DNA of 64,000 nucleotides from Akkermansia muciniphila (GTDB taxonomy: Bacteria > Verrucomicrobiota > Verrucomicrobiia > Limisphaerales > BJHT01). The notes beneath the pieces were generated by a model, which worked only from the letters and a program-made list of their open reading frames with translations, was not told where the DNA came from and did no database searches. The translations under genes were made by a program, and so were the position numbers. Each line of letters opens with the position of its first letter. Position 1 is the stretch's first letter. Location: the NCBI GenBank assembly GCA_945861535.1, contig CAMAUZ010000002.1:62001-126000 (forward strand), read 5' to 3'. This document shows, one piece after another, positions 6,657 to 28,500 of the stretch.

Positions 6657-8810
6657 TCAACCCGCCCCCGCCGCTGCCACCGGGGTCCGCGCGGTGCGGC
6701 CGGCGAGCCAGGACTCGGCGAGCAACACCACGAGGGCGAGGACGATGAGCCAGCGCCAGAGTTTCTGGCGATTCTCGAGTTCGGCGGAGACGAGTTGCCG
6801 GCGCTTGGCTTCCTCGGCTCGGGGGGTGCGGGTGAGCAGTTGTTTCACGGGCACGCCGAGGCGTTCCAAATCTTCGAGTGGCAGCGGAGTCGTGCGGCTT
6901 TCGGTGGCGGCGACGTTCACGGCGAAGCGCCAGGGTTTCGCGCCGCCAGTGACGGCGTAGATGCCGGGCAGGTCGGATTGCGTGAAGTGATTGGTGCCGA
7001 CTGGCACATTCAAGATGGCTCCGTCGGGGCGGCGCACATTCACGCCGACGCTGACGCTCGCATTGGTGCGGATGCTGGGCGCGCCGGGTGGTCCGCTCGG
7101 GGTCGCAGCCGCCAGTGCGGACGCGGGCAATTCCACGCGATCGCCGACGAGGTATTGCGCGGTCTGCGCCTTGAGGCCGCCGCTGGCTTCGAGGATTGAG
7201 TAGAGCAGCGGCACAAACTTCGACGAGAGCGCGAGCTGGCTGTCCGCGGGGTGCCAGCCGCACGCGAGTACCAGCAGGCTGCCGCGACCGATGGCGAGCT
7301 GCAGCAGCGCCGGATCGCCGCTGTCGAATTCCGCGATGACCCGCGCGCCCGGCAGCTTGTCCACGGGCAGCCGGCGGTGTTTCCAGAAATGGATTTTGGT
7401 GAAATCGCTGAAGCGGGGATCGGCGAACGGCGCGAAGAGCGGATGCTGCAAATCAATGCGCCCGAGCATCGCGTAATCTTTCACCGTCGCTTCGGTCGCG
7501 GCGAAATTCTCAACGCCCACGAGCTGACCGACCGTCTCCGCGACGCCCGCGTTTTTCACCACGGCCAGCAGCATTCCGCCGCCTTCCGCAAAGCGCCGCA
7601 ACGCCGCGATGTCGGGTACCGCATCGGCGAAAATCAGCAACGGCGCATTGGTCGCCGCGAGCAGGGCCGCGGCGTCGGCGGGTTTGCGCGGCACGACTTG
7701 CACCACCTGCTTGAGCGTTTGTTGAAAGGCGCGTTTGAGGAAATACAGCGGCTGCGTGGTGTCACTGTCCGCCTCGCTTCCGAGATAGAGCACCGGCACT
7801 TGTTCGATGCGTGTCGGCACGAGAAAAGCGCGATTGTCGAAATCTTCCTCATCGCCCGTGAGCACGAGTTGTTCGCCCGCGCTGCCATCGGCGGGCTTGG
7901 GCGCGAAGACCACGCGGCTCTGGCCGGGAGGCACGTAGATTTCCACGGCGGCAGTTTCCGGCTGGCCGTCCCACCGCACGCGGAACTGCTCACGCTTGGA
8001 TTCGCCGGCGTTGAACACCCGCACCCGCGTGCCGGCATCTGCCGCGCCGCCCGCCGTCGCCTCGAGTTCTGGCAGAAGCTGAAGGCCCGCGTTGGTCGGG
8101 CGTTTGGCCTTGAGCGTCTCGAGCACGACCTCGATGCCCTTCGGCCATTCGTAACCTTGCAGCGCCTCGGTGGTCGCGCCTTCCTGCAAATCGCTCACGA
8201 GCACGATCTGCCGCGGCCCGCGGAGCTTGGCGTTTTTGTCCGCATCCTCCAGCGCCTCGGCGGCACCAATCAGCGCCTGATCCAGGCGCGTCGCAGCCCA
8301 GCCGGCCGAGAGCGACCGCAGCCGGGACAACGTCTCCTCGACCCGTGCGCCCGCGCCCAGCCGCGTCCAGTCGTCGAATTGCAGCACCGCGCGCAGGTCG
8401 CGATCGAAGGCAAAGACCGCCGCGGTTTCCTCGGGCCGCACGTCGCGCAGCACCGCCTCGACCCGCGCCAGCGCCGCCGTCCACAGTCCTTCGCGCCGCA
8501 TGCTCGCGCTGGAGTCGAGGAGCACGACGACCTTGCGGGCCTGTTCGTTTTGCGCGGCGGGATCGACTGGAGTTTGAAAAAACGGTCGGGCAAAACCGAG
8601 GCCCAACAAACACAACGCCAGGCAGCGTAACGCCAGCAGCAGGAGATTTTCCAACCGGCTCCGGCGCGTCACCCGGGGCGGTGACGCCTGCAAAAACATG
8701 AGCGAACTGAACGGCATCCGCTCGCGGGTGGTGCGGCGGATGAGATGAAATAAAACCGGCAGCGCCACGGCCAGCGTGCCGATAAGGAAGAGTGGCGTCA
8801 GAAAGCTCAT
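6657..8810 (-). CDS. BatA/von Willebrand factor A membrane protein
   Basis: The 717-residue protein begins with a BatA-type N-terminal domain: a hydrophobic segment (TPLFLIGTLAVALPVLFHLI), the basic RRTTRERMPFSSLMFL motif, and a second membrane segment around residues 55-78. A vWA domain follows, with a MIDAS-like DSSAS at about residue 100. The middle is a GATase-like periplasmic region and the protein ends with a C-terminal membrane helix. The start was moved to the ATG at 8810, because a longer frame to 9011 only adds an Arg/Pro-rich stretch with no conservation. BatA proteins usually accompany MoxR ATPases and DUF58 proteins, but neither is in the window. A role in envelope stress or complex assembly is inferred from the family only. 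Confidence 0.85.
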   Translation of the reverse strand: MSFLTPLFLIGTLAVALPVLFHLIRRTTRERMPFSSLMFLQASPPRVTRRSRLENLLLLALRCLALCLLGLGFARPFFQTPVDPAAQNEQARKVVVLLDSSASMRREGLWTAALARVEAVLRDVRPEETAAVFAFDRDLRAVLQFDDWTRLGAGARVEETLSRLRSLSAGWAATRLDQALIGAAEALEDADKNAKLRGPRQIVLVSDLQEGATTEALQGYEWPKGIEVVLETLKAKRPTNAGLQLLPELEATAGGAADAGTRVRVFNAGESKREQFRVRWDGQPETAAVEIYVPPGQSRVVFAPKPADGSAGEQLVLTGDEEDFDNRAFLVPTRIEQVPVLYLGSEADSDTTQPLYFLKRAFQQTLKQVVQVVPRKPADAAALLAATNAPLLIFADAVPDIAALRRFAEGGGMLLAVVKNAGVAETVGQLVGVENFAATEATVKDYAMLGRIDLQHPLFAPFADPRFSDFTKIHFWKHRRLPVDKLPGARVIAEFDSGDPALLQLAIGRGSLLVLACGWHPADSQLALSSKFVPLLYSILEASGGLKAQTAQYLVGDRVELPASALAAATPSGPPGAPSIRTNASVSVGVNVRRPDGAILNVPVGTNHFTQSDLPGIYAVTGGAKPWRFAVNVAATESRTTPLPLEDLERLGVPVKQLLTRTPRAEEAKRRQLVSAELENRQKLWRWLIVLALVVLLAESWLAGRTARTPVAAAGAG

Positions 8811-9126
8811 GAACCGGAAACGACCATCAGGGCATTTGAGAGAATCAGTGCGGCATCTTCGCGCGCCCCGCGCGAGGGCCGCAGGAGTATCCCACCCCCC
8901 AGCCCCGTGCAAGCACACCCTGCATCGCGCGCGGTGCGCCGGCGGCCGGCCGGTTCGCGTCAGCCTCAATGCCGACGGGCACCGGCTCATCCGGGTGGCC
9001 ACGCCGATCACCTTCCAGCGTTATGAAGAGCAGCTCAACGAGGCCGTGGGCAAGGGGCTGCTGCTCCTGCTGTTCACCTGCGGTCTCGGGCTGCTGCTCG
9101 CGGCGGTGCTGAATTGGATGAGTTGA
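8809..9126 (+). CDS. possible small single-pass membrane protein (start uncertain)
   Basis: The last 60 or so codons (from about 8940) have strong GC-third-position bias and encode a polar stretch, an ITFQRYEEQLNEAVGKG amphipathic segment, then a hydrophobic helix LLLLLFTCGLGLLLAAVLNW ending the protein. This looks like a C-tail membrane anchor. The first 45 codons from the ATG at 8809 are Arg/Pro-rich and unconvincing. In-frame alternatives are GTG at 8995 or CTG at 8920. With the ATG, it would start divergently and overlap the BatA start codon. No family recognised. Confidence 0.3.
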   Translation: MNRKRPSGHLRESVRHLRAPRARAAGVSHPPAPCKHTLHRARCAGGRPVRVSLNADGHRLIRVATPITFQRYEEQLNEAVGKGLLLLLFTCGLGLLLAAVLNWMS

Positions 9127-9348: not shown

Positions 9349-12300
9349 TTATTCCACCGGACGATTCAGCAGGTCGGTGAGGATTTCCGCGACGAGGCGG
9401 ACGTGCGGTTCTTCCAGAATTCCCAAGTGACTGCCGGTGACTTGGTGGACGTTGATCGGCCCGCGCACATGGCCGCGCCAGGAGTCTTCCGGCGGGCCGT
9501 TGGTGCGATAGAAATCCTGGGTTTCGCCTGCTTTGAAGAGCGTGATTCCGCCCGCATAGGGCTGCGGCACATAGGTCCGTCGCAGCCGGCCATCATGGAC
9601 GCTGAGGTGTTCGTGGGGGCGGTAACCCGGCGGGGCGTGGTGATGGACCTCGCGCCTGGCGATGGCGACGGCGCGACGGACGACGCCCTGGACGCCCCCC
9701 TTGATCACGTTGCGCGTGACCTCCGCGAGCGGCAGTAGCTTGGGTGCGATGACGAGCCGGGAATCCAAGAGCGCCAGCAGCCGCACCTCTTCCCCAGTTG
9801 CCTTGAGTTGCCGGGCCATTTCAAAGGCCACCACGCCGCCAAAGGAATAGCCCAGCAGCGCGTACGGGCCGCGCGGTTGGAAGCGCCGCATTTCTGCGAG
9901 ATAGTGCGCCGCGAGTTGCTCGAGCGTGTCGGGGAGAGTGAGTTCGTCGTTCCCCGTCTGGGCCGCCAGACCGTAGCGCAGTCCATAGACCGGCTGTTCC
10001 GGTCCGAGATGGGGGATCAAGTTCTGATAACGCAGGAAATGAATGCCGAAGAGTGGCGGCCGGGTACCGGTGGGCTGGATAGGTACCAAAGAACGCCAGG
10101 AGGTGGCGGCTGCCTCGGGTTGCAGTCGGGCGGCGAGTTGCTCGAGAGTCCGGGCTTCAAAAATGGTGGCGAGCGGTAGCTTCCGACCCAACTGCCGCTC
10201 GATGAGTGAGAGTACACGAACGCCGAGCAGAGAGTGTCCGCCCAGGGCGAAGAAGTCATCGTGAATGCCCGCGCGTACCCCGCCCAGCACGTCCTGCCAA
10301 ATCCGGGCCAGTTGCCGCTCAATGTCATTGCGGGGGGCGACATAGTGATCGGCTCCGGCGGTGGCTTCCGACGGTGGCGCCGGGAGTGCCTTGCGGTCGA
10401 TCTTACCATTCGGAGTCAGGGGCAGAGTAGCGAGCGACACGATCCGCGCGGGGATCATGTAATCCGGCAGCCGGTGCTTGAGTGACTCGCGGAGCGTCGT
10501 GGCATCGGGGGTGTGACCGCGGGCGGCAACCACATAGCCCAGGAGACGCTGGTCTCCCGACTTAGTCTCTTCGGCGATCACGACGCAGTCATCCACGCCG
10601 GGGGTCGCGCGCAAGACGGCTTCCACCTCACCCAGCTCGATGCGAAAGCCGCGAATCTTCACCTGAAAATCCTGCCGGCCCATGGACTCGATCATGCCAT
10701 TGGGCAGCAGTCTGCCGAGATCGCCGGAGCGATAGGTTCGGCTGCGGGGTGATTGGGGATCGGAGTGAAAGGCGGCGGCAGTGAGTTCGGGGCGTCGCCA
10801 GTAGCCCACGGCGAGCGCGGGACTACGGATGACAATCTCTCCGAAGACCTGGCCCGGATCACCCGCGGCGTTGATCAGTGAGACTTCGAGGGTGTTGGCG
10901 GTTGCGCGGCAGCGTGTCTCTACCGGGGAGGCGGAGTGGCTCGTCGGAGTTACCGGGTCAGTGACGGGATAGCCAATCGGGATGGCCCCGCCGGTCAGAG
11001 GCGTGTGCGAGTCAAGGAAGCACTGGAGCGCGATCGTGCATTCGGTGGGACCATAGCCATTCACAAAGAGACAATCCCCGCCGAAATACTTTTGAAACAT
11101 CGCGACATCCAGGGGAACCACCTTTTCTCCGCCCATGACGATCAGTCGCAGGCGGGGAAACTGCTGCCGACCGGAGAGCGTTCCGACGAGATAGCGATAG
11201 AGCGTGGGGGTCGAGTGATAGAGGGTAATTTCCTCGGCGACCAGCCAGTCGCCGAGGTGGTCGAGGTTTTCCGCACTGACATTGTAAGGATAGAGCGTTG
11301 CGCCATTGAGCAGGGCGCCATAGATGCCCATGACCGCGGCATCAAAGCCGTACGAGGCGAAGAGCGTGAGGCGGTCGGCCGCGCAGATATGCAGGCTGTT
11401 GGTGTAGTTGCGGATGTGTTGCAGGACATGCCGGTGAAGCTGGGTCACACCCTTGGGCTTGCCCGTGGAACCCGAGGTGTAGAGCAGATACGCCATGGCG
11501 TCGGCCGGTACCGGCGGCAGGGTCGCGCCGACGGCGGCCTGCCAGTCGAGGGCGTTCAGGTTGATCGGCGGCACGCGACCGGGGTTCAGGGTGTGGACTC
11601 GGGCGGCGTTTTTCGCGTCCGTCACGATTACCTCGGCCTGGGCGTCGGCGATGATGCCGGCCAGCCGGTCCTGGGGATGAGTGGGATCGAGCGGAACATA
11701 GACTTTGCCCGCCCGCAACACGCCGAGGAGGGCCGCGATCATGGGTGCATCGTGATCCAGCAAGAGCGCGACGCGGGTGGGACCGCCGCGGCAGACCTGT
11801 AGCAGTTTCTGGGCGATCAGTTGGGAGCGGCGACTTAGCTCACCATAAGTCCAGGTATGGGTGCGGGTTTTGACCGCGAGGCGGTTGGGCGCCAGCCGAA
11901 CCATCTGCTCGAACCGTGCCGGGATGGACTGCTCGGTGTCTTCGAGTGGGAATGAGACAAAAGGATTCCGTGGTCGCACGGGAAGGTCGGTGACGGAATA
12001 GCGGCGGCGATCGGCCGGAGTCAGGAGTGGGAGCCGGCCGATGGGCTGACCAGGATCAAGGGTGATGGCTTCGAGGAGAGTCTGATAACGGGCCAACAGG
12101 CGTTCGATGGCCGGAGCGGTGAACAGGTCGGCATTGTAAAGGGCCCGGAGCTGAATGCGCTCGGCGGTGTCACTCGCGAAGAGAGTGAGATCGAATTTAG
12201 CACCGGGTTCATGCACCGGCACCCGCTCGACTTTCAGCCCGCCGAATGATTCGGGGACAGCGTCGAGGTTGAAGAAGTTGAAGAGTATCTGGAACACCGG

Positions 12301-13470
12301 AGCGTGGCTGCGGTCGCGCTCGGGTTGGAGTTTCTCCACCAGTTTCTCGAAGGGGAGGTCCTGGTGGGAAAAGGCATCCAGCGCGGTGGTGCGGACGCGG
12401 TGAAGGAGTTCCCGAAAGCTGGGATTGCCGGCGAGATCGGTGCGCAGGGCGAGGGCGTTGATGAAGTAACCGATCATGCCTTCCATGGCGGCCTGGTCGC
12501 GGCCGGCGATGGGTGCGCCGATGACAAGGTCAGTCTGTCCGGAGTGGCGGGCGAGGACGACTTTGAAGGCCGCCAGCAGGGTGATGAAGAGAGTGACACC
12601 TTCGCGCTTAGAGAAGGCGCGGAGTGAGTCACTTAGCTGGGGCGAGAGTTCGAGGGTGTGATAAGCGGCGTGCGCCCCGGTGCGGGTGGGACGGGGTCGG
12701 TCGGTCGGGAGAGTTACGAGTGGGGGCGCGCCGCTGAGTTGCTTCACCCAGTAGGTGAGCAGACGGTCGAGTTCCGTGCCCTGTAGTCGTTGTCGCTGGC
12801 GGCGGACATAGTCGCCGTATTGCATCGGCAACGGTGACAGCGGGCCGGGTTTCCCGAGAGAACTGGCGGAATAGAGTGCGGCCAGCTCGCGATTAAAGAC
12901 GCCGATGGACCAACCGTCGCAGACGATGTGATGACAGACGGTGAGGAGAACGTGCTCGTGGGGGCCGAGTTGAAATAGTTTGGCCCGAACCAATGGTCCG
13001 GTGCTGAGATCGAAAGGCCGGGCTATCTCCTGGTCGAGCAGGGGCGAGAGAGTCGTGGCCTGGGTCTGGGCGGGCAGTGAACTAAGGTCCACCAGCGGGA
13101 GTTCTATTCGGAGGGCAGAGTCGATGTGTTGGACTGGCTCACCGGCGATTTCGATGAAATGGGATCGCAGACTGTCGTGACGGGCGATCACAGCGTTGAG
13201 CGCAGTGACCAGGGTCTCGCGGTTTAACTCACCCCGGAGACGCAACGCGTCGGGCACATGATACTGCGTGCTCGAACCATCGAGGCGATCCAACAGCCAC
13301 AGACTGGCTTGGGCGAACGACAGGGGCAGGGGTTGGGCGGGCGACGGTGGCGGGACGGGCGCGGTGGGCGCGGTGGGCGCAGAGACGCCGCGGCGGAGAT
13401 ATTGCCCCAAGAGTTGGCGGCGCTTCTCGGACAACGGCTCGGGAGGCGGTTTGGAATCGACTCCGCTCAT
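9349..13470 (-). CDS. nonribosomal peptide synthetase, C-A-PCP-TE termination module
   Basis: The 1373-residue protein has, in order: a condensation domain (about 50-480) with the catalytic motif HHIVCDGWS near 178; an adenylation domain (about 515-1010) with YLLYTSGSTGKPKG near 660 and NGYGPTECT; a carrier domain with FFALGGHSLLG near 1077, whose Ser carries phosphopantetheine; and a type I thioesterase (about 1120-1370) with GYSFGG near 1208 and a C-terminal GSHLGIL His. It would condense the PCP-bound residue from the upstream A-PCP protein with its own amino acid and release the product. By eye the specificity positions read roughly D-A-M-?-V-G-G-I-A, which I cannot assign. The start ATG lies 2 bases after the P450 stop, so translation is probably coupled. 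No MbtH or phosphopantetheinyl transferase gene is nearby. Confidence 0.95.
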   Translation of the reverse strand: MSGVDSKPPPEPLSEKRRQLLGQYLRRGVSAPTAPTAPVPPPSPAQPLPLSFAQASLWLLDRLDGSSTQYHVPDALRLRGELNRETLVTALNAVIARHDSLRSHFIEIAGEPVQHIDSALRIELPLVDLSSLPAQTQATTLSPLLDQEIARPFDLSTGPLVRAKLFQLGPHEHVLLTVCHHIVCDGWSIGVFNRELAALYSASSLGKPGPLSPLPMQYGDYVRRQRQRLQGTELDRLLTYWVKQLSGAPPLVTLPTDRPRPTRTGAHAAYHTLELSPQLSDSLRAFSKREGVTLFITLLAAFKVVLARHSGQTDLVIGAPIAGRDQAAMEGMIGYFINALALRTDLAGNPSFRELLHRVRTTALDAFSHQDLPFEKLVEKLQPERDRSHAPVFQILFNFFNLDAVPESFGGLKVERVPVHEPGAKFDLTLFASDTAERIQLRALYNADLFTAPAIERLLARYQTLLEAITLDPGQPIGRLPLLTPADRRRYSVTDLPVRPRNPFVSFPLEDTEQSIPARFEQMVRLAPNRLAVKTRTHTWTYGELSRRSQLIAQKLLQVCRGGPTRVALLLDHDAPMIAALLGVLRAGKVYVPLDPTHPQDRLAGIIADAQAEVIVTDAKNAARVHTLNPGRVPPINLNALDWQAAVGATLPPVPADAMAYLLYTSGSTGKPKGVTQLHRHVLQHIRNYTNSLHICAADRLTLFASYGFDAAVMGIYGALLNGATLYPYNVSAENLDHLGDWLVAEEITLYHSTPTLYRYLVGTLSGRQQFPRLRLIVMGGEKVVPLDVAMFQKYFGGDCLFVNGYGPTECTIALQCFLDSHTPLTGGAIPIGYPVTDPVTPTSHSASPVETRCRATANTLEVSLINAAGDPGQVFGEIVIRSPALAVGYWRRPELTAAAFHSDPQSPRSRTYRSGDLGRLLPNGMIESMGRQDFQVKIRGFRIELGEVEAVLRATPGVDDCVVIAEETKSGDQRLLGYVVAARGHTPDATTLRESLKHRLPDYMIPARIVSLATLPLTPNGKIDRKALPAPPSEATAGADHYVAPRNDIERQLARIWQDVLGGVRAGIHDDFFALGGHSLLGVRVLSLIERQLGRKLPLATIFEARTLEQLAARLQPEAAATSWRSLVPIQPTGTRPPLFGIHFLRYQNLIPHLGPEQPVYGLRYGLAAQTGNDELTLPDTLEQLAAHYLAEMRRFQPRGPYALLGYSFGGVVAFEMARQLKATGEEVRLLALLDSRLVIAPKLLPLAEVTRNVIKGGVQGVVRRAVAIARREVHHHAPPGYRPHEHLSVHDGRLRRTYVPQPYAGGITLFKAGETQDFYRTNGPPEDSWRGHVRGPINVHQVTGSHLGILEEPHVRLVAEILTDLLNRPVE

Positions 13471-13472
13471 GG

Positions 13473-14762
13473 CTAGGCCGGGGACGGGTTCGCGCCGGGA
13501 CCGCGAGTTACCGCAGGGTCTGGAGCAGGAGGACCGTTGAAATTAACAGGCAGCGCGGTGAGTCCGCGCAGTCCGAGATTAGTCCTCCAGACCAACGGTC
13601 CTGGCTCGAGGTTCCAGGTGGGGAAACGGCGGATGAGTTCGGTAAAGGCAATCTGAGTTTCCATGCGGGCCAGGGGTGCGCCGAAGCAGAAGTGACCGCC
13701 CCAACCAAAGGCGAGATGGCGATTGTCCTGGCGCGTGATGTCGAGTCGGTCGGGATCGGGGAAGCGTTCGGGATCGCGGTTGGCGGCGGCCATCACAGCC
13801 ATGACGGCATGGCGTTTGCGGATGGGTTTGCCGCCGATCTCGGTGTCTTCCGGGGCGAGCCGGGCGGTGTGTTGGCTCGGGCTTTCGTAGCGCAGCAACT
13901 CTTCGACGGCGGAAGTCATTAGTTCCGGGCGGGCGCGAAGTTTGGCGAGTTGGTCGGGGTTGCGGAGGAGGGAGAGGAGGCCGCAGCCAATGAGATTGGT
14001 CGTAGTCTCCTGGCCGCCGACCATGGTGACAATGCTGTTGGCGATGACTTCATCCTCGGTGAGTCGGTCGCCTTGTATCTCGGCATCCATGAGCGAGCGG
14101 ACGAGGCCGTCGGGGCGAAGAGTGTCGGCGCGCATGTGAGAGCGGAAATAGGAAGTCATCTCCTCGGTGCTCTTGAGAATGCGCGGGACGCGGTCGGGGT
14201 TGTGTTGGAAGTTACCCAGCATCTCGGCGAAGTCCTGGGACCAGAATTTCAACTGGCGATGATCGGCGACGGGGACGCCGAGCATTTCCGCGGTGACGAT
14301 GCACGGCAGCGGTTCGGCAAAGTCGGCGATGACATCCATGCGGCCGGACTGAGTGACTTGATCGAGGAGCGTGGTGACGATCTCGCGGATGTGGGATCGG
14401 AGGACTTCGACGCGGCTGGGAGTGAAGGCTGCCGCCGCGAGACTACGGATGCGGGTGTGCGCGGGCGGGTCGAGAAACAGCATCTGTTTCACCATGACTT
14501 TGGCGATGGGATTCAGCGCGGAGAGTCCCATCTCCGTCAGTTTCTCGGGCGGGGGCGAACGGTCGGCGGAGAAATCGCGCAGCACGCGCATCACATCGGC
14601 GTAACGAGTCACGACCCAGGAATGCAAATAGGGATCCCATTGGACGGGGGCTTCGGTGCGCAGGCGATGATAGAGGGGATAGGGATTGGCCAGGACCTCG
14701 GGATCGAGCAATTGGAAGAGACTGAGAGCGGGCGCGCTTTTTTTCTTCGGGTCGAGGGCCAT
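13473..14762 (-). CDS. cytochrome P450 (NRPS-tailoring)
   Basis: The 429-residue bacterial P450 has the I-helix oxygen-activation motif GGQETT (about residue 247), the K-helix ExxR in EELLRYES, and the haem-binding loop FGWGGHFCFG, with the Cys ligand near residue 360. It is soluble with no membrane anchor, so a class I enzyme that needs ferredoxin and ferredoxin reductase encoded elsewhere. The ATG at 14762 was chosen because it follows the NRPS stop by 25 bases. A GTG at 14843 would add 27 Pro/Asn-rich residues and overlap the upstream gene. Its place between an A-PCP didomain gene and a C-A-PCP-TE gene parallels known pairs in which a P450 beta-hydroxylates a PCP-bound amino acid (NovH/NovI, NikP1/NikQ). 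That role is inferred. Confidence 0.93.
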   Translation of the reverse strand: MALDPKKKSAPALSLFQLLDPEVLANPYPLYHRLRTEAPVQWDPYLHSWVVTRYADVMRVLRDFSADRSPPPEKLTEMGLSALNPIAKVMVKQMLFLDPPAHTRIRSLAAAAFTPSRVEVLRSHIREIVTTLLDQVTQSGRMDVIADFAEPLPCIVTAEMLGVPVADHRQLKFWSQDFAEMLGNFQHNPDRVPRILKSTEEMTSYFRSHMRADTLRPDGLVRSLMDAEIQGDRLTEDEVIANSIVTMVGGQETTTNLIGCGLLSLLRNPDQLAKLRARPELMTSAVEELLRYESPSQHTARLAPEDTEIGGKPIRKRHAVMAVMAAANRDPERFPDPDRLDITRQDNRHLAFGWGGHFCFGAPLARMETQIAFTELIRRFPTWNLEPGPLVWRTNLGLRGLTALPVNFNGPPAPDPAVTRGPGANPSPA

Positions 14763-14787
14763 ACGGGGTGGGTCGGGAGTAGTCAGC

Positions 14788-16743
14788 TTAGTAAGTGGCA
14801 ACGGGTGCGGTGGTGGCGAGTTGTTGTTGGACTTCGGCTTCACTCATGGTTTCTAACTTCGCGACCAGCAGGCTTTCGATCTCGGCGGCGAGTTCGATGA
14901 CAGTCGGGGCTTCGAAGAGAACGCGCAAGGGGAGGTTGATGTCGAAGGTCTCGCGGACGCGGGCGATCAACTGGGTGCCGAGAAGTGAGTGCCCGCCTAA
15001 CTCGAAGAAATTGGCGCCAACATCGACCTGTTCCGGGCTGGTGAGTTTGAGGAGCGGAGCGAGCAAGCCGGCCAGGCAATGTTCCGCGTCGGTCTGGGCG
15101 GGAGTGAATTTGTTTTCGTCGGAGGAATTGGCTAGGTCGGGAGCGGGCAGCGCGGCGCGATCGACTTTGCCGTGAGGAGTAAGTGGGAGCGCGATGAGTG
15201 ACACGAAGGTCGCTGGGATCATGTATTCGGGCAGGCGTGCGGCGAGGAACTCGCGTAACTCGGCGCGCTTGAAGAGTGAGCCGGACTGGGGAACGACATA
15301 GGCGACGAGCCGCGCTTCGCCGGGAGCAGAGTCTCTCGCCAGGACGAAGCTTTGGGAAACAGCGGGGTGCTGATTCAGCGCGGCACCGACTTCGTTGGGT
15401 TCGATACGGTAACCGCGGACTTTGATCTGGTCATCGAGACGGCCGAGAAAGGCTAGCTCGCCGTTGGGTAGGGATTTCCCGAGATCGCCGGTCTTGAAGA
15501 GTTTGGCGGCGAGATTGGCGGGGTTGAAAGGATCGGGAACAAAGCGTTCGGCCGTTAAGTCAGGGCGGTTGCGATAGCCGCGGGCGACACCGATACCGCC
15601 GAGGTAGATTTCACCCGGTTCGCCGGGAGTTACCGGGCGAAGCGAGTCATCCAAGAGATAGAGTTGTATGTTGTCGATGGGGCGGCCGATGGTCGGGAGG
15701 CCGGTGCCTGTGACTCCGTCGGGCATCTTACCCGAGGTTGCCACGACCGTGCATTCGGTGGGGCCGTAATTGTTAATTAACTCAAAGGGCAGGCCGGATG
15801 GAGGATAACTGTGAAGTGTGTCTGCGCCCGTCAGTAGAGTCCGCAGCGCCGTGTTGGCGGGCCAGGCGAGAGTGAGCAGTCGCTCCGCAACGGGCGTCGG
15901 GGCGAAGGCTATGGCGATGCGTTCGGCCACCAACCAGTCACGCAAGGCCTCGGGATTAGCGGTGATTTCATTATCAGCGAGATGGACGCTGGCTCCGGCG
16001 GTGAGATACGGCCAGATTTCCCACACGGCGGCGTCGAAACTGACCTTGGCGATCTGACTGGCCCGGTCCGTGGGTGCGACACTGAAGGCGCGTTGATGCC
16101 AGACGATGAGATTGGCCAGACTGGCGTGGGAGACTTCAACGCCCTTGGGTTGGCCGGTCGAGCCGGAGGTGTAGATGACATAGGCAAGGTCACTCGGGCG
16201 CAGACCTGCTACGGGCGGCGGAGTAGCCAATGGCGGAGAGGCTTCCGCGATTGCCCCAGTCTCGTGGAGGATAACTCGGCGGCTTACCCGCCACGCGATG
16301 CGGGCGGCGATGGCGGGTCCGGTGATAACGACCGAGGCTTGGGCGTTCTCGAGCAGGAAGGCGAGGCGCGCGTCCGGGTAGGATGGGTCCAAGGGCAGAT
16401 AGGCGCCGCCGGCTTTGAGAATGGCCAGCGCGCCGACAATCATGGCGATGGAACGATCCAGACAAAGTCCGACCACAACGTCGGGACCGACGCCGAGGGT
16501 GCGGAGGGTGGCGGCGAGTTCCGAGGAGCGGGCATCCACGGTGCCGTAGGTCAAGGTGGTGGAACCTTGCGCCAACGCCAGATCGTCGGGGTTGGCTTGG
16601 GCGTAGGCGGTGAAGCGTTCCGCCACGAAGCCCGCCGGCGAACCGGTTCGCAGTCCCGCGGGAATCTGGGTCAGATGGGGCTTGGCTGGCCGCACCGTGG
16701 TCGGCGGGATCACACGTTGGATCGGATTTGGATTCAGTGACAT
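14788..16743 (-). CDS. nonribosomal peptide synthetase, A-PCP loading didomain
   Basis: The 651-residue protein has an adenylation domain (about 40-530) with YVIYTSGSTGQPKG near 189, FDAAVWEIW and NNYGPTECTVVATSG, then a carrier domain with FFELGGHSLLG near 581. There is no condensation, epimerisation or TE domain, so it would load the first residue. The substrate positions, read by eye, give D-A-W-F-L-G-N-V-V. That matches a code known for leucine and the surrounding TLLTG and LINNYGPTE text also fits, but alignment of the fourth position is uncertain. It is the first gene of the operon NRPS-P450-NRPS. A short Shine-Dalgarno-like AAGAGG lies just before the ATG and overlaps the tandem 19-bp repeat upstream. 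Confidence 0.95.
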   Translation of the reverse strand: MSLNPNPIQRVIPPTTVRPAKPHLTQIPAGLRTGSPAGFVAERFTAYAQANPDDLALAQGSTTLTYGTVDARSSELAATLRTLGVGPDVVVGLCLDRSIAMIVGALAILKAGGAYLPLDPSYPDARLAFLLENAQASVVITGPAIAARIAWRVSRRVILHETGAIAEASPPLATPPPVAGLRPSDLAYVIYTSGSTGQPKGVEVSHASLANLIVWHQRAFSVAPTDRASQIAKVSFDAAVWEIWPYLTAGASVHLADNEITANPEALRDWLVAERIAIAFAPTPVAERLLTLAWPANTALRTLLTGADTLHSYPPSGLPFELINNYGPTECTVVATSGKMPDGVTGTGLPTIGRPIDNIQLYLLDDSLRPVTPGEPGEIYLGGIGVARGYRNRPDLTAERFVPDPFNPANLAAKLFKTGDLGKSLPNGELAFLGRLDDQIKVRGYRIEPNEVGAALNQHPAVSQSFVLARDSAPGEARLVAYVVPQSGSLFKRAELREFLAARLPEYMIPATFVSLIALPLTPHGKVDRAALPAPDLANSSDENKFTPAQTDAEHCLAGLLAPLLKLTSPEQVDVGANFFELGGHSLLGTQLIARVRETFDINLPLRVLFEAPTVIELAAEIESLLVAKLETMSEAEVQQQLATTAPVATY

Positions 16744-17076: not shown

Positions 17077-19047
17077 ATGTTCGTTTATCCGAAGGTCTAT
17101 GATGTGATTGTGGTGGGTGCGGGCCATGCCGGCGTGGAGGCGGCGCTGGCGGCGGCGCGCATGGGTTGCCAGACCCTGCTGCTCACGATCAATGCGGACA
17201 CGATCGGGCAGATGTCGTGCAACCCGGCGATTGGCGGTCTGGCCAAGGGGCACCTGACGCGCGAAGTCGATGCGCTGGGCGGAGAAATGGGGAAGACCAC
17301 CGACATGACCGGGCTACAGTTCCGCATGTTGAACACGAGCCGGGGGCCGTCGGTGTGGGCACCGCGAGCGCAGTGCGACAAGAAGGCGTATCAATTTAGG
17401 CTGAAATGGATGTGCGAGCGGCAGGAAAACCTCGATATTAAGCAGGCGCAAACCTTAAAGCTCTTCCATCAAGACGGAGTTGCGTGCGGAGTCGAAACGA
17501 CCTTGGAGGTGCGGTATCTCGGTAAGACCGTGGTGATCACGACGGGGACGTTTTTGCGGGGCCTGATGCACATTGGCGCGAATCAGCAGGCCGGTGGGCG
17601 GGCGGGGGAAGCGGCGGCGATGGGGCTGTCAGGATCGTTAAAGGAAGTCGGATTGGAGCTGGGAAGGCTGAAAACGGGCACGCCGCCGCGGTTATTGCGG
17701 CGTTCCATCGACTTTTCCAAGACCGAGATTCAGCCGGGGGATGAGCCGGTGCCGTACTTTACCTATTGGAAGGATGATTTGTTCCATGTGGAACATTCGT
17801 TTGTTCATCCCAACGACGGAGGGAACTCGCAGGGCCGGTATCCGCGGGGGTCGATCCTGGATCGGATCAATGGGCAACTGCCGTGCCATGTGACCTTTAC
17901 GACGGCCAAGACCGCCGACATCATCCGCGCCAATCTGCACCGGTCGCCGATGTATTCGGGCGTGATTGAGGGGGTGGGACCGCGGTATTGCCCCTCGATT
18001 GAGGACAAGATCGTGAAGTTCGCGGACAAGGAGCGGCATCAGATTTTTCTGGAGCCGGAGGGGATCGCGACGGACGAGATTTACATCAATGGTTTCTCGA
18101 CGTGTCTGCCGTACGAGGTGCAGCTCGAGATGATCAAGACCGTGATTGGCTGTGAGAATGCGGAGATTCTCCGGCCGGCTTACGCGGTGGAGTATGATTT
18201 CTCGTTTCCGACGCAGCTCCTTTCCTCGCTGGAGACGAAGGTTTGCGGGGGCTTGTTTTTGGCGGGGCAGATCAATGGCACGTCGGGATACGAGGAGGCG
18301 GCGGCGCAGGGTTTGATGGCGGGGATCAATGCGGCGCGGAAGGTTCAGGGGGAGGAGGCGCTCGTGCTGGGGCGGGATCAAGCGTACATCGGGGTGCTCA
18401 TTGATGATTTGGTGACGAAGGGGACGGCCGAGCCGTACCGGATGTTTACCTCGCGGGCGGAGTATCGGTTGCTGCTGCGGCAGGATAATGCCGATTTGCG
18501 GCTCGCGGAGATTGGGCATCAGATCGGGCTGCTGCCGGAGCGGAATCATCGGAAGTTCGTAGCCAAGCGGGAGGCAATCGCCGGCGAGGCCGCCCGGCTT
18601 AAGACGGTTCGGCACGGGTCCAATACGTTGGAGGAATTGCTGCGGCGGCCGGAGGTTAACTATCGGAATCTCCCCGGCGAGACGCCGAATTTGCCTGAGG
18701 AGGTGACATTGCAGGTGGAGATTGCGGTTAAATATGCCGGGTATATTGATCGGCAGCAGGGCGAGGTGGCGCGATTTCGGACGATGGAGGACAAGCGGAT
18801 TCCTGATGAGCTGGACTACGACCGGGTTCCCAGTCTCGGTCGCGAGGCCCGGCAGAAGTTAAAAGAAATCCGGCCTAGGACCATCGGTCAGGCCGGACGC
18901 ATCTCAGGGGTTTCGCCGGCGGACATCAGCATCCTGCTGGTGAGCCTGAAGCGCGGCTCTGGGATGACGGTCGAGGCCGGTGCCTGTGCCGTCGAGGAAC
19001 ATGAGAAAGTCCCAAGCGCCCATAACACTTGCTGTGGGGATCTGTGA
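17077..19047 (+). CDS. mnmG: tRNA U34 5-carboxymethylaminomethyl-modifying enzyme MnmG (GidA)
   Basis: The 656-residue FAD enzyme works with MnmE to place (carboxymethyl)aminomethyl groups on the wobble U34 of certain tRNAs. What is seen: the N-terminal dinucleotide-binding [17 protein letters not shown]; the family motif [39 protein letters not shown]; and [13 protein letters not shown] before a C-terminal helical domain. The family is usually about 620-635 residues. Here about 25 extra residues follow the [14 protein letters not shown] ending and cover a sequence rich in Cys, Gly and His. MnmE is not in the window. A parS-like 16-mer sits inside the gene (17780) and another starts two bases after the stop codon. 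mnmG often lies near the replication origin in bacteria. Confidence 0.98.
17780..17795. promoter_or_regulatory. parS-like site 1 (inside mnmG)
   Basis: TGTTCCATGTGGAACA, a near-palindrome similar to the bacterial parS consensus TGTTTCACGTGAAACA. It is one of three identical copies within 1.7 kb. The ParB-binding role is inferred from sequence similarity and from the mnmG context. Confidence 0.65.
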
Positions 19048-23214: not shown

Positions 23215-25479
23215 ATGAAGCAACGGCCCGTCCTTTCGCTCCGCCGCCCGAGTCTGTTCTCGGCGGTTCTCCCCCCCACCTTCCACAAATTCGTCCTGCT
23301 CTTCACGCTTCTCGCCGGCACCGGTTCGTTGCTGGCCCAAGAGGGGAAAGCCCCCGTCCCCGGTGCCAGTTCCGTCATCGAAGACCGCAAGGCCAAGCAG
23401 ATGATCGAAGCCGGCGACGCCCGCTACGACGCCAACGAGATAGAGCCGGCCATCGAACTCTACAAAGCCGCCATCGACCGCTATCCCGCCAGCAAGTGGC
23501 GCTACCTCGCCCATCTCAAGATCGGCAAGCACGCCTTCCTCAAGGATCGTAAGTACGACCTCGCCCTTGACCAGTTCCGCCGCGTCGCCGCCGTCGAGAA
23601 CAAAGACATCGATCAAGTCGCCGAAGCCAGCCTCTTCATCGGCCGCACGCTGTTCGAGAATCAGAAGTTCGAAGAGTCCTTCACCGCCCTGCGCGACGTC
23701 ATCAAGAACTTCCCCGACACTCCTTATTGCAACGACGCCTACTTCTACATCGGCCAGGGTCACTTCAAACTCGGCCGCTTCAACCGCGCCATCGAAGCCT
23801 TCAAAAACGTCGGCACCGCCCTCGGCAAAGACGCCGCCGAATCCGACCGCCTCGAAATCGGCAAGCGCCTCTACATCCGCATTGACGATCAGGACCTCAC
23901 CGCCATGGCCAGCGCCGAGGGCTTGAAGGTCACCGTCGAAACCACCGCCGGCGACCGTGAAGAAGTCCTCTGCTTTTCCTCCACCCCCGGCTCCCCGACC
24001 CTCATGGGCAGCATCAAGACCGTCCTCGGTGACGCCTCCCGCACCAACGGCGTCCTCGAACTCAGCGGCACCGACACTTTGAAAGTCACTTACCTCGACA
24101 AGCAGACCGCCGACGGCAAGCTCAACCAAATCCGCATCCGCGAAATCCGCGCCGTCGGCCAGGGCCGCGCCGAAGTCGTGGACGGTGCCTTCGCCGATCC
24201 CGTCGGGGCCGTCGTCCTCGAAAAACCCGCCTTCCTCCGCGTCCGTGACGGCGATCGCGATATTACCAAAAAGCAGGACAAACTCGAAGCCATCGTCCGC
24301 ATCAAGCGCCTCGACGACTCCGACGCCACGCCGGCCAAGAGCGCCCAGACCGCCGCCGCCACCGACCCGGACGAAAAACCCGTCGCCAAGTACAAAGTCA
24401 TCCAGGAGAAAACCATCACCCTCAGCGAACAAGTCCTGAATCCCACGAACGCCTCGGTCCACGCCGAAGCCTTCATCGGTTCCATCCTCATTGTCCGCGA
24501 AGGCACCACCAACGCCGCCGCCCTCCACGCCAACGTCGGTGACTACCTCGAAATCGAGTACCGCGATGAACTCAATCTCACCGCCAAGTCCACCAACCGC
24601 GTCTATCTCGCCAAGGTCATCGAGGGCAACCTCAGCCCCCTCCAAGTCGCCGAGGCCAACGTCGCCGACGAAGAGTTGAAGATTCGCATCCCGCTCGAGA
24701 CCACCGAGGCCCTGACCAAGATCGGTAACATCTACAAAGAGATGGGTTTGAACCTCCAGGCCAAGGATAAGTACAAGCAGGCCCTCGACGAAGTTCAGCG
24801 CGTCGCCCGCACCCACGGCACGATGAACCCGCGCCTCCTCGAACGCACCTACGTGCAGACTTGGAAAATCTACTACGCCATGGACGACCTCAACCGCGCC
24901 GCCGCCCAGTGCGTCGAACTCCAGCGTCGCTTCCCCAACAGCCCCTTCGTCGGCGACGCCCTCCTTCTCATGGCCCAGGTCGCTCAGAAAAAAGGCAACT
25001 ACATGGAAGCCGTCGGCGTCTTCCGTCGCCTCGCCGGCATCAAGAGTCCCCTCGCCGCCGAAGCTCAGTTCGGCATCGGCGCCGCCCTCGAAGCCGCCGC
25101 CGAATCACAAAAGCAAAAATCCCACCTCGACGAGGCCTTCCGCGCCTACAAAACCTGCGCCGAGAAATTCCCCGCCTCCAAGTTCGCCGGCGACGCCCTC
25201 TCGCGCATGGCTGACTATTATTACAACAAGGAAGACTACAGCCGCGCCATCGACATCTACGAGGAAGCCATCAAGATGAATCAGGACTCCAAGTTCTTGG
25301 ATAACATCCTGTATGGTTACGGCCGTTGCCTCGTTAAGATGAAGCGCCTCGACCAGGCCCTCGAGAAATTCCGCAGCCTCATCCTCACCTATCCCAACAG
25401 TCCGCTCGCCCCCAAGGCCAAGCAGATCGCCGACGCCATCGAGAAGAAACTCGTCGGTGGAACCGCCAAGGCCGAGTGA
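23215..25479 (+). CDS. secreted TPR protein with beta modules (envelope operon gene 1)
   Basis: The 754-residue protein opens with a basic N terminus and hydrophobic core (FVLLFTLLAGTGSLLAQ) that form a signal peptide, ending at about residue 38-42. TPR-like helices of YbgF/BamD type (for example AIELYKAAIDRYP, ALDQFRRVAAV) fill residues about 60-215 and 490-750. Between them, from about 219 to 420, are two beta modules beginning RIDDQDLTAMAS and RVRDGDRDITKK, related to those in the next gene. The ATG at 23215 was chosen because a longer frame adds only upstream non-signal sequence. It is first of seven co-oriented genes; the next starts 47 bp after its stop. Confidence 0.85.
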   Translation: MKQRPVLSLRRPSLFSAVLPPTFHKFVLLFTLLAGTGSLLAQEGKAPVPGASSVIEDRKAKQMIEAGDARYDANEIEPAIELYKAAIDRYPASKWRYLAHLKIGKHAFLKDRKYDLALDQFRRVAAVENKDIDQVAEASLFIGRTLFENQKFEESFTALRDVIKNFPDTPYCNDAYFYIGQGHFKLGRFNRAIEAFKNVGTALGKDAAESDRLEIGKRLYIRIDDQDLTAMASAEGLKVTVETTAGDREEVLCFSSTPGSPTLMGSIKTVLGDASRTNGVLELSGTDTLKVTYLDKQTADGKLNQIRIREIRAVGQGRAEVVDGAFADPVGAVVLEKPAFLRVRDGDRDITKKQDKLEAIVRIKRLDDSDATPAKSAQTAAATDPDEKPVAKYKVIQEKTITLSEQVLNPTNASVHAEAFIGSILIVREGTTNAAALHANVGDYLEIEYRDELNLTAKSTNRVYLAKVIEGNLSPLQVAEANVADEELKIRIPLETTEALTKIGNIYKEMGLNLQAKDKYKQALDEVQRVARTHGTMNPRLLERTYVQTWKIYYAMDDLNRAAAQCVELQRRFPNSPFVGDALLLMAQVAQKKGNYMEAVGVFRRLAGIKSPLAAEAQFGIGAALEAAAESQKQKSHLDEAFRAYKTCAEKFPASKFAGDALSRMADYYYNKEDYSRAIDIYEEAIKMNQDSKFLDNILYGYGRCLVKMKRLDQALEKFRSLILTYPNSPLAPKAKQIADAIEKKLVGGTAKAE

Positions 25480-25526
25480 GTCAGCCAATCAATTACCTTC
25501 CCGTGACCTTTCAGTCCATCCCTGCC

Positions 25527-28500
25527 ATGAAATTCTCCCTCGCGCTCACCTGCGCCGCCCTCGTCGGCGTCGCCTCAACTCACGCCGCCGCCCTTGACGA
25601 CGTCCGCGCCCTTAACAGCAAGGGTCAGTTCGCCGAAGCCATCACCAAAGCGGAAACTGCCGCCCGGGCGAGCGGCAAAGATACCGCCGCACTTCAGGCC
25701 GAGTTAGTCGATGCCTACCTCGGTGCCGGCCGGTTGCTCGCTGCCAACCAGTTGGCTGACAAACTCCTCAAAGACATCCCCACCGGTCCGCTCAAAGCCC
25801 GCCTGCTTTTCGCCTGCGCGCGCGCCAAGGAAGCCAACGGCTGGAGCGCCAAAGCCCTCGCTCTCTACCGCACAGCCGCCGAAGTCGTCCCGCCCACTCC
25901 CGAACGTCCCGAGGCATTGATCGCCGCCGCCCGCGTCGCTTCCACCCTTGTCCGCGATGCTCGCGAAGAGGCCCGCGCCCTCCGTGATTTCGTCGAATCC
26001 TACTCCAAAGATCCCCGCGCCCGGGACGCCCACGAACGCCTCGTCTCCCATCTTATCCGTCAGAACGATCACAAAAACGCCGCCGCCTTCATCGCCAGCT
26101 ACACCAAGACTTACCCGGATGATCCCGCCTGCGCGGCGATGAATGAGTACTATCATCTCCGTCAGATCAACGACCTTCCCGCCGCCGTCGCCGCCTGGGA
26201 TCGCAAACGTCAGTCGCCGCACTTCGTTCTCGATGCCGGGACCGTCGCCCAATCCTTTGATCTTCTCCGCCAGAACAAAGACTACTTCGTTCGTTTGGAA
26301 AAACTCTGCCAAGACTATCAGGAAGCGACCGGCGATCCCGCCTATCTCCTCAGTCTGATAACTCAAGTCTATGAGCCGGCCAATGAAATGGACCGCGTCA
26401 TCCGTCTCGGCTCCGCCCTGATGCAGAAATATCCTAACACCACGCTGTCCCGTCAGGTGCGCCTCGCCGTCGCGTCGGCCCAGCAGAAAATCAACAAGAT
26501 CGCGGACGCCGAAAAACTCCTCGTCGCCGCCATCGCCGACGAACCCGCGAACATGACCGCCTGGTCGCGTTACGATCTCTTGGTCACAGTGGATAAGCGC
26601 CCCGCCGCCTTCACCCAGCTCGCCACCGCCACCCTTGCGGCCAATGCCAATCAAGCCAACCCGGCGATCAAGGCCATCGTCGCCAACGAACTGACTTATG
26701 CCCTCGCCCGCAAAGCCGCCCAAGCCAAGGATCACCCCGCCACGCTCAAACTCGCCACCACCTATCTCGAGACGACCGGTCTCGCACACTCTGGCGAACT
26801 GATCGGCTGGGCGTTCGACTCCAGCTTCGCTGTCACCAATAATTTCGATACGCTCACCGCCTCGCTCGAAAAATATTTCACCCGCCTTCCCGCGGCGTGG
26901 AACCCCGCCGTTGCCTACACGGAAGGTGTCGCGCGGGAATGGGCCAAGGGCGGCAAGCAGGCTCCGCATCCCGTCGAAGGCAAGAAGCTCTTGGAAATGC
27001 TGACCCGCGTCCGCGGCACCGATGCCCAAAAGCAGATGAGTCAGTTGCAACAGGCCCGCTCTACCAGCAAATGGAAAAACGCCGGCGAACTCGGTGCCGC
27101 CCTCGCTCCCACGTTGCCCGCTGGTTCCCTACTCCAAACTGAGATCGGTATCTCCGCCATCGAGGCCCTTACTTCCGCCAGCCAGTTCGAAAAAGCCGGC
27201 GACCTGGCCAAGACCCTCGCGCCCGCCAGCAAAGGTCACACCCCGCTCCTCTGGGCCGGCGCCCAAGCCTACCTCCGGCTCGCCAAACCCAAAAGCGCCG
27301 ATGCGATTCCGTTGCTCAAGGAAATTGCCCAGCGCGGCTACGCCCCGCTCGATCCCGCCGCCGTACGCGGCACTCTCTTCCAAGTCTATGAGGCCAACGG
27401 TCTCCTTGCCGAAGCCCAGACCGAACTGACTGAAATCTCCAAACTCTCTCCCGGCAGTCTCAACAATCGCGAACTCGAACGCCGTCTTGCCGTCGCCCTC
27501 GCCACCGCCGGCAAAACCAACGAAGCCACCCAGATCATCCAGAAGCTGGCCAAGCTCGCCAAACCCTACAACGGAGATCTCGCCCTTATCAGTGACTTCA
27601 CCCCGGTCAACGCCGCTCACGCAGCGTGGATCGTCCCGATTCTCGATGACTATCTCAAGCGCCCAAACCGCGGCCCCAACCAGATCGTCGCCCTCAACAC
27701 CAAGGGCCGCTTCACCCATTACGCCCTCACTAACAACGCCGCCGCCGAGAAAATTCTCCGCGAACAATCCGCCCGTTCCGCTGACTATCTTTTCGCCGCC
27801 CGCGGCCCGCATGTGGATTGGATGGATGCCACCATCAGCCGCATCACCAGCACGCCCGACTACACCGCGGACCAGCTTCAGCTCATCAAGGATGGGATCA
27901 AGATTTACACCGCCTACCCGACCTGGATCAAAGCCGCCCTCACCGGTTCCGCCCGGCTCAACCAACCCATCGAGTTCGCCCAATATCTCAACCGGTTCGC
28001 CTCCTCTTTCGGCCCTTCTGATGCCGGACGCTTCACCGAACTCGTGACGCTGGCCCGGCAGCTTGCCGACGACAAAACACCCGAACTGGCCGGCATGGTC
28101 CTCCTCAAGGCTGACTCGCATTTCAAGAGTGTCGATGAAAAGACCCGCGCCCAGGGCCGCCAGTTCCTCTACACCTTGAACAAGGATTCCGCCCTCGGTC
28201 TCGGCACTGTTATCATTGATCCCAGCGTGCCTTACTCCGTCTTCCTCGTCGCCGCCGAAAGCTTCCGTAACAGCGAACTGGAATCCGCCTGGAAAGCTTA
28301 CACCGTCAACGAAGCCATCTTCCCCAAGAACCTCGATAACATCCCCGTTGACTACATCCGCTATGTCGCCGGCCGCCTCATGCTCCTCGAAGATGAAGTC
28401 TCCCGCGAAAAGGCCGAGTCCTATCTTCGCCGCTGGATCATCGCCAACGACGCCGTCACCGCCATCTCCGCCGACGAGAAGGCCCTCACCCAGCAACAAC

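Follow-up and report, generated by a model that had tools for sequence, protein, structure and literature searches.

A leucine-type A-PCP protein, a cytochrome P450 and a C-A-PCP-TE protein form a predicted two-module pathway to an oxidised-leucine dipeptide

What does a compact operon that joins a cytochrome P450 to two nonribosomal peptide synthetase (NRPS) proteins make, and is it peculiar to the verrucomicrobial genome in which it lies? We addressed this question in a stretch of 64,000 nucleotides (the window). Three genes are transcribed from the minus strand in the order A-PCP (16743-14788), P450 (14762-13473), and C-A-PCP-TE (13470-9349), separated by 25 bp (14763-14787) and 2 bp (13471-13472). 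All three frames are open, encoding 651, 429, and 1373 aa, respectively, and the Pfam matches are far above the cut-offs: AMP-binding, AMP-binding_C, and PP-binding in the A-PCP gene, p450 in the second gene, and Condensation, AMP-binding, AMP-binding_C, PP-binding, and Thioesterase in the third (NRPS2). The core motifs of the A, PCP (GGHSLL), C (HHIVCDG), and TE (GYSFGG) domains are all present. Gene integrity and domain order are established at the level of sequence, and the arrangement, with catalytic motifs in both A-PCP and C-A-PCP-TE, is that of a dimodular NRPS with release by the TE. The sequence-only reading, which had described three minus-strand genes with gaps of 25 and 2 bases and a C-A-PCP-TE module at 9349-13470, was borne out; it had named frame breaks or an inactive P450 or A domain as grounds for refutation, and when these were looked for, the frames were open and the core motifs in place.

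The first module consists of the following features:
14788..16743, minus strand: stand-alone A-PCP didomain of 651 aa, first module, predicted to activate leucine (ORF and Pfam)
15166..16611, minus strand: adenylation domain A1, residues 45-526 (Pfam AMP-binding and AMP-binding_C)
14881..15072, minus strand: PCP1, residues 558-621, motif FFELGGHSLLG (Pfam PP-binding)

Alignment of the A4-A5 region gave the ten-residue specificity code DAWFLGNVVK for A1, the positions being assigned to those of GrsA by way of the motifs. This code has been assigned to Leu in two studies (PMC7524897; PMC12283262). Hence, leucine is the predicted first residue, and its loading is well supported by the A1 code. 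The earlier proposal of an oxidised first residue stands as the most likely case, and the code sharpens that residue to leucine.

The P450 gene and its diagnostic sites are as follows:
13473..14762, minus strand: cytochrome P450 of 429 aa, the only P450 of the genome (ORF, Pfam, AlphaFold2 model with pLDDT 85)
14196..14216, minus strand: GNFQHNP, predicted F-G loop, residues 183-189, near-invariant in the family
13686..13688, minus strand: codon of the haem-ligand Cys359 in FGWGGHFCFG, an invariant alignment column

The start was taken at the ATG at 14762; use of the alternative GTG at 14843 would create an overlap with the A-PCP gene. The haem, ExxR, and I-helix motifs had been reported as intact, and indeed the haem loop FGWGGHFCFG, EELLR, and VGGQETT are near-invariant in the family. 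In the AlphaFold2 model, GNFQHNP lies between helices 165-187 and 189-212. The family signature at this predicted F-G loop is WSQDFAEMLGNFQHNP, and that of the I helix is VGGQETTTNLI. By both sequence and fold, the best PDB match was P450BioI solved with acyl-ACP (39% identity, 4e-79, Z 46.4), the top structural Z-scores being near-tied, and many of the nearest neighbours of BioI in sequence, PikC, EryF, and PksS among them, are P450s with free substrates. The usual rule for a P450 subfamily is more than 55% identity, against which the 39% places the window enzyme outside that of P450BioI (CYP107H). A ferredoxin dedicated to the P450 was not identified.

The second and last module comprises:
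9349..13470, minus strand: C-A-PCP-TE protein of 1373 aa (ORF and Pfam)
12007..13329, minus strand: condensation domain, residues 48-488, HHIVCDG intact, the only C domain of the genome (Pfam and motif)
10402..11913, minus strand: adenylation domain A2, residues 520-1023, code DAMHVGGIAK (Pfam and code alignment)
10123..10314, minus strand: PCP2, residues 1053-1116 (Pfam)
9379..10035, minus strand: thioesterase domain, residues 1146-1364 (Pfam)

The A2 code DAMHVGGIAK is shared only with the genus mate L020 and nearly so with the acidobacterial locus L027 (DAMHVGGVT), and no match to it was found in the literature searched.

We propose that the A-PCP protein would activate L-leucine and load it onto its own PCP, that the P450 would oxidise Leu-S-PCP, most likely to beta-hydroxy-Leu-S-PCP, that the C domain of NRPS2 would use the oxidised aminoacyl group as the donor and join it to the residue loaded by A2, and that the TE would release the dipeptide by hydrolysis or cyclisation. 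To this reading, a two-module NRPS with on-carrier oxidation of leucine, condensation with the A2 residue, and TE release, we assign a probability of about 0.72. The pairing and co-variation described below suggest that the P450 acts on carrier-bound leucine, and the product would be a dipeptide containing an oxidised leucine. The beta position is the most probable site by analogy with Sky32 and NovI, which are P450s of no demonstrated close kinship to the window P450. Sky32 is an established case of a P450 that beta-hydroxylates PCP-bound Leu, and Tem23 a reported one (PMC9321520); NovI acts on tyrosyl-S-NovH, as cited in PMC13200230.

The same Leu-S-PCP could instead undergo gamma- or delta-hydroxylation, desaturation, or N-oxidation, which we regard as possible though unlikely. 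Such chemistry would be consistent with the family's own invariant F-G loop (GNFQHNP) and I helix (GGQETTTN), and with BioI as the best PDB match; BioI came first, and none of NovI, P450sky (a beta-hydroxylase), and OxyD was among the best 60 PDB sequence matches. However, the PCP-dependent leucine P450s named in the literature surveyed are all beta-hydroxylases.

Relatives were collected by a scan of one genome per species. Orthologues of the P450 with 62-96% identity were found at 46 loci in at least seven phyla, their hosts being Verrucomicrobiota, Acidobacteriota, Actinomycetota, Pseudomonadota, Chloroflexota, Dormibacterota, Vulcanimicrobiota (Eremiobacterota), and an ANGP1 bin; many of the loci come from metagenome bins, and those of Sphingomonas from isolates. 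At each of the 45 loci for which upstream sequence is available, the gene immediately before the P450 encodes an A-PCP (A-PCP-TE in L042), and the A1 code is exactly DAWFLGNVVK in 40 of the 44 readable proteins, the window included, and differs at one position in the remaining four. Nine further Sphingomonas loci (L084 proved to be the same locus as L054, hence nine of ten Leu-type check loci were new) have the Leu code, a P450 of 62-66% identity, and C-A(Gly)-PCP-TE in 9/9, with a phosphopantetheinyl transferase in nearly all. The conserved pairing and the Leu code are thereby established in sequence terms. The operon is not a one-off, and its uniqueness to the host genome was rejected, because the 46 related loci make the A-PCP/P450 pair a conserved cassette in many phyla.

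The cassette is patchily distributed: it occurs in 3 of the 196 genomes scanned from the order, in 1 of 388 in a draw from the phylum, and, at 62-65% identity, in 21 of 295 Sphingomonas-genus genomes. The short FQHNP DNA pattern was uninformative across the order, where 95 of 192 genomes match by chance. A tree of the P450s places the family in a single starred clade with a long stem, with Verrucomicrobiota in two places; the window groups with Acidobacteriota and Verrucomicrobiota with support of 100/98. Horizontal transfer is the likeliest explanation, although bins may contain wrong contigs and gene loss can look like transfer.

The protein behind the P450 varies. C-A-PCP-TE with a Gly code occurs in Acidobacteriota, Rhodospirillales, Dormibacterota, and Sphingomonas, and other C-A-PCP-TE partners have Val/Ile-like or other codes, these assignments other than Leu being presumed from published codes; one position of the Gly-domain code in the Sphingomonas alignment reads C through a gap and L in the other alignment. 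Elsewhere, L021, L022, and L025 have C-PCP-TE, which has no A domain; L033 and L037 have a separate C protein together with C-A-PCP-TE; Acidimicrobiaceae have a C domain joined to a degenerate A domain; and some loci have longer lines. Pairwise identities of the P450 correlate with those of A1 at 0.89 (Pearson) and 0.79 (Spearman) and with those of the downstream C domain at 0.71 and 0.47, so that by this sequence measure the P450 tracks A1 more closely than C. The best explanation of these comparisons is that the Leu-A-PCP/P450 pair is a conserved, horizontally spread unit with an exchangeable second half.

These data bear on the possibility that oxidation follows assembly, with the P450 acting on the dipeptide, either released or still bound to PCP2, as CypX does on cyclo-Leu-Leu, rather than on Leu-S-PCP1. 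The P450 does score 181 bits with TIGR04538 (cyclodipeptide-synthase-associated P450), and CypX orthologues are among its structural matches. However, this score is far under the curated cut-off of 500, which places the enzyme outside that family, and the structural alignment with CypX shows only 20% identity; a CypX-like role was weighed and put low on both counts. Furthermore, relatives differ in the second residue and even in the type of the second module but share the P450 and Leu code, and therefore a dipeptide-acting enzyme would meet very different substrates. We consider post-assembly oxidation improbable.

Oxidation on the first carrier is also favoured by sister P450s with 47-49% identity, which adjoin A-PCPs with other codes (DFWLIGCVH and DASTLGNIA); the P450 type therefore follows the A1 substrate. 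P450 lineage and A1 code change together at the sequence level, as on-carrier oxidation predicts. One such sister cassette, in Rhodanobacteraceae (L071, 3588-11166), consists of A-PCP (DFWLIGCVH), a P450 of 49% identity with a GNFEHDP loop, and C-A(Gly)-PCP-TE. The DFWLIGCVH cassette sits in the genome of L057, which also has the Leu pair. The Sphingomonas sister cassettes (L074, 6283-9362; L075, 5449-8531) have a P450 of 47% identity and an A-PCP with the code DASTLGNIA, a different substrate class in a like layout. The nearest outgroup found was a pair of Nostoc plasmid P450s (45%) behind an FAAL-ACP didomain, again activation domain, carrier, and P450. In these loci (L067, 12676-24736; L068, 9759-22177), FAAL-ACP and P450 accompany a PKS/NRPS line ending in C-A-PCP-TE; one plasmid is mobilizable and the other conjugative.

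Several observations on the second half deserve mention. In many relatives, the second, catalytic His is missing from the C domain that immediately follows the P450; the window copy is intact. Such domains are present in L033 (9854-11299), L058 (11286-12737), L062 (11259-12782), L023 (3370-4797), L021 (9520-12135), L022 (3689-6034), L025 (11266-13863), and L027 (8572-13482), with the motifs HQxxxDG, HLxxxDG, HDIVFDD, HFLVYDD, and HTLIYDD. By analogy with glycopeptide X domains, they could be non-condensing domains that recruit the P450, or else altered catalysts. In Acidimicrobiaceae, fusions of C with a degenerate A domain are found in L044 (11212-13773), L056 (11279-13918), L072 (13182-15830), and L073 (3651-6479); L072 and L073 have a broken A3 motif and no longer have Asp235, and neither PCP nor TE was matched in the C-A partner of L044 and L056. 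Three actinobacterial/Rhodanobacteraceae relatives were considered as C-less two-gene pathways and rejected: in L043 and L048 the one C domain of each genome, that of the C-degenerate A partner, lies about 10 kb downstream of the P450, and in L057 the one C domain of the genome is on another contig, inside the sister cassette. In L057, a membrane H+-pyrophosphatase gene (11607-13949) directly follows the A-PCP/P450 pair, perhaps by chance. In the Chloroflexi locus L042 (2-9929), the module with the Leu A-PCP comes last, carries a fused TE, and precedes the P450, a layout suggesting that the P450 accompanies the Leu carrier and not a position in the assembly line.

NikP1/NikQ together with a thioesterase supply hydroxyhistidine, and the cassette might likewise supply free oxidised leucine, its C domain making no peptide bond. 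This would suit the relatives whose second protein has no A domain (L021, L022, and L025, with C-PCP-TE), whose C domain lacks the catalytic His, or whose C domain is joined to a dead A domain. In the window, however, C (HHIVCDG), A2, PCP2, and TE look intact, and the dN/dS of NRPS2 (0.16) is that of a gene under purifying selection; we hold a supply of free oxidised leucine to be distinctly improbable there.

The operon is flanked by divergent mnmG (17077-19047, plus strand) and a BatA/VWA gene (6657-9011, minus strand), and it is found with its mnmG side also in L020. Elsewhere in the window lies a very long ORF of 2269 aa (25476-32285, plus strand). In the comparison with L020, the P450, A-PCP, and NRPS2 genes had dN/dS values of 0.05, 0.20, and 0.16, respectively, and the adjoining housekeeping gene mnmG had 0.07; the operon genes are under purifying selection, which is strong on the P450. 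A decaying or silent cluster is thus scarcely credible: its rarity (the 3/196 and 1/388 genomes above) would fit, but all frames are intact in both genus members, with dN/dS of 0.05-0.20. In the host genome (7.9 Mb, 96.6% complete), the single condensation domain and the single P450 are those of the operon. The absence of MbtH, noted before for the neighbourhood, extends to the entire genome. It is also true that no phosphopantetheinyl transferase gene lies nearby, which had seemed odd; the genome has two genes of that superfamily, one of them a 258-aa Sfp/AASDHPPT-type located away from the operon (G000:C18; L066 2454-3230). Because the genome has this copy and about half of the related loci (23 of 46) carry an Sfp-like transferase in the cluster, its absence nearby is no puzzle.

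Neither a description nor a product of the cassette was found in the literature searched, by paper search alone. The principle of on-carrier oxidation is already known (NovH/NovI, Sky32); the lineage, distribution, and products of the cassette appear undescribed as judged against that literature. We suggest tentatively, at somewhat less than even odds, that Leu-PCP/P450 is a widespread undescribed system of soil bacteria, single-purpose and making small metabolites of oxidised leucine, that has spread horizontally through at least seven phyla, is usually its host's sole NRPS, and has its own P450 subfamily specialised for leucyl-PCP and a new product class. If so, the product would be Leu*-Gly (Leu*, oxidised leucine) in Sphingomonas, several Acidobacteriota, and others, and Leu*-X in the window. 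Of the 11 genomes checked, 9 have exactly one C domain; hosts in which no further condensation domain is detectable retain this module pair, and the Leu/P450 unit occurs from Verrucomicrobiota to Sphingomonas with differing second halves. It would therefore be a natural, exchangeable NRPS starter cassette with built-in oxidation. Since cultured Sphingomonas strains carry the compact form (A-PCP, P450, C-A(Gly)-PCP-TE, and phosphopantetheinyl transferase), the chemistry and product are directly testable without the uncultured host.

Among known systems, NovH/NovI (novobiocin) and NikP1/NikQ (nikkomycin) share the layout of a stand-alone A-PCP followed by a P450, where oxidation is expected on the aminoacyl-S-PCP; the window has both a stand-alone A-PCP with intact core motifs and an adjacent complete P450. 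In contrast to these systems, which use Tyr and His, the window cassette is predicted to use leucine, its P450 matches BioI best in the PDB instead of a known beta-hydroxylase, and it has exchangeable condensation modules in at least seven phyla. The predicted substrate, PCP-bound leucine, is that of the Streptomyces PCP-dependent leucine beta-hydroxylases P450sky (Sky32), Tem23, and EpcB, which act inside long assembly lines, whereas here a free A-PCP protein is matched one-to-one with the P450. P450BioI (CYP107H1), the best match in sequence and fold, also has a carrier-protein-bound substrate; it cleaves a carbon-carbon bond of acyl-ACP in biotin synthesis, whereas the window P450, 39% identical, is predicted to act on an aminoacyl-PCP. 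The Nostoc loci likewise combine an activation and carrier didomain, a related P450 (45%), and a line ending in C-A-PCP-TE, but they activate a fatty acid instead of an amino acid and have PKS modules in between.
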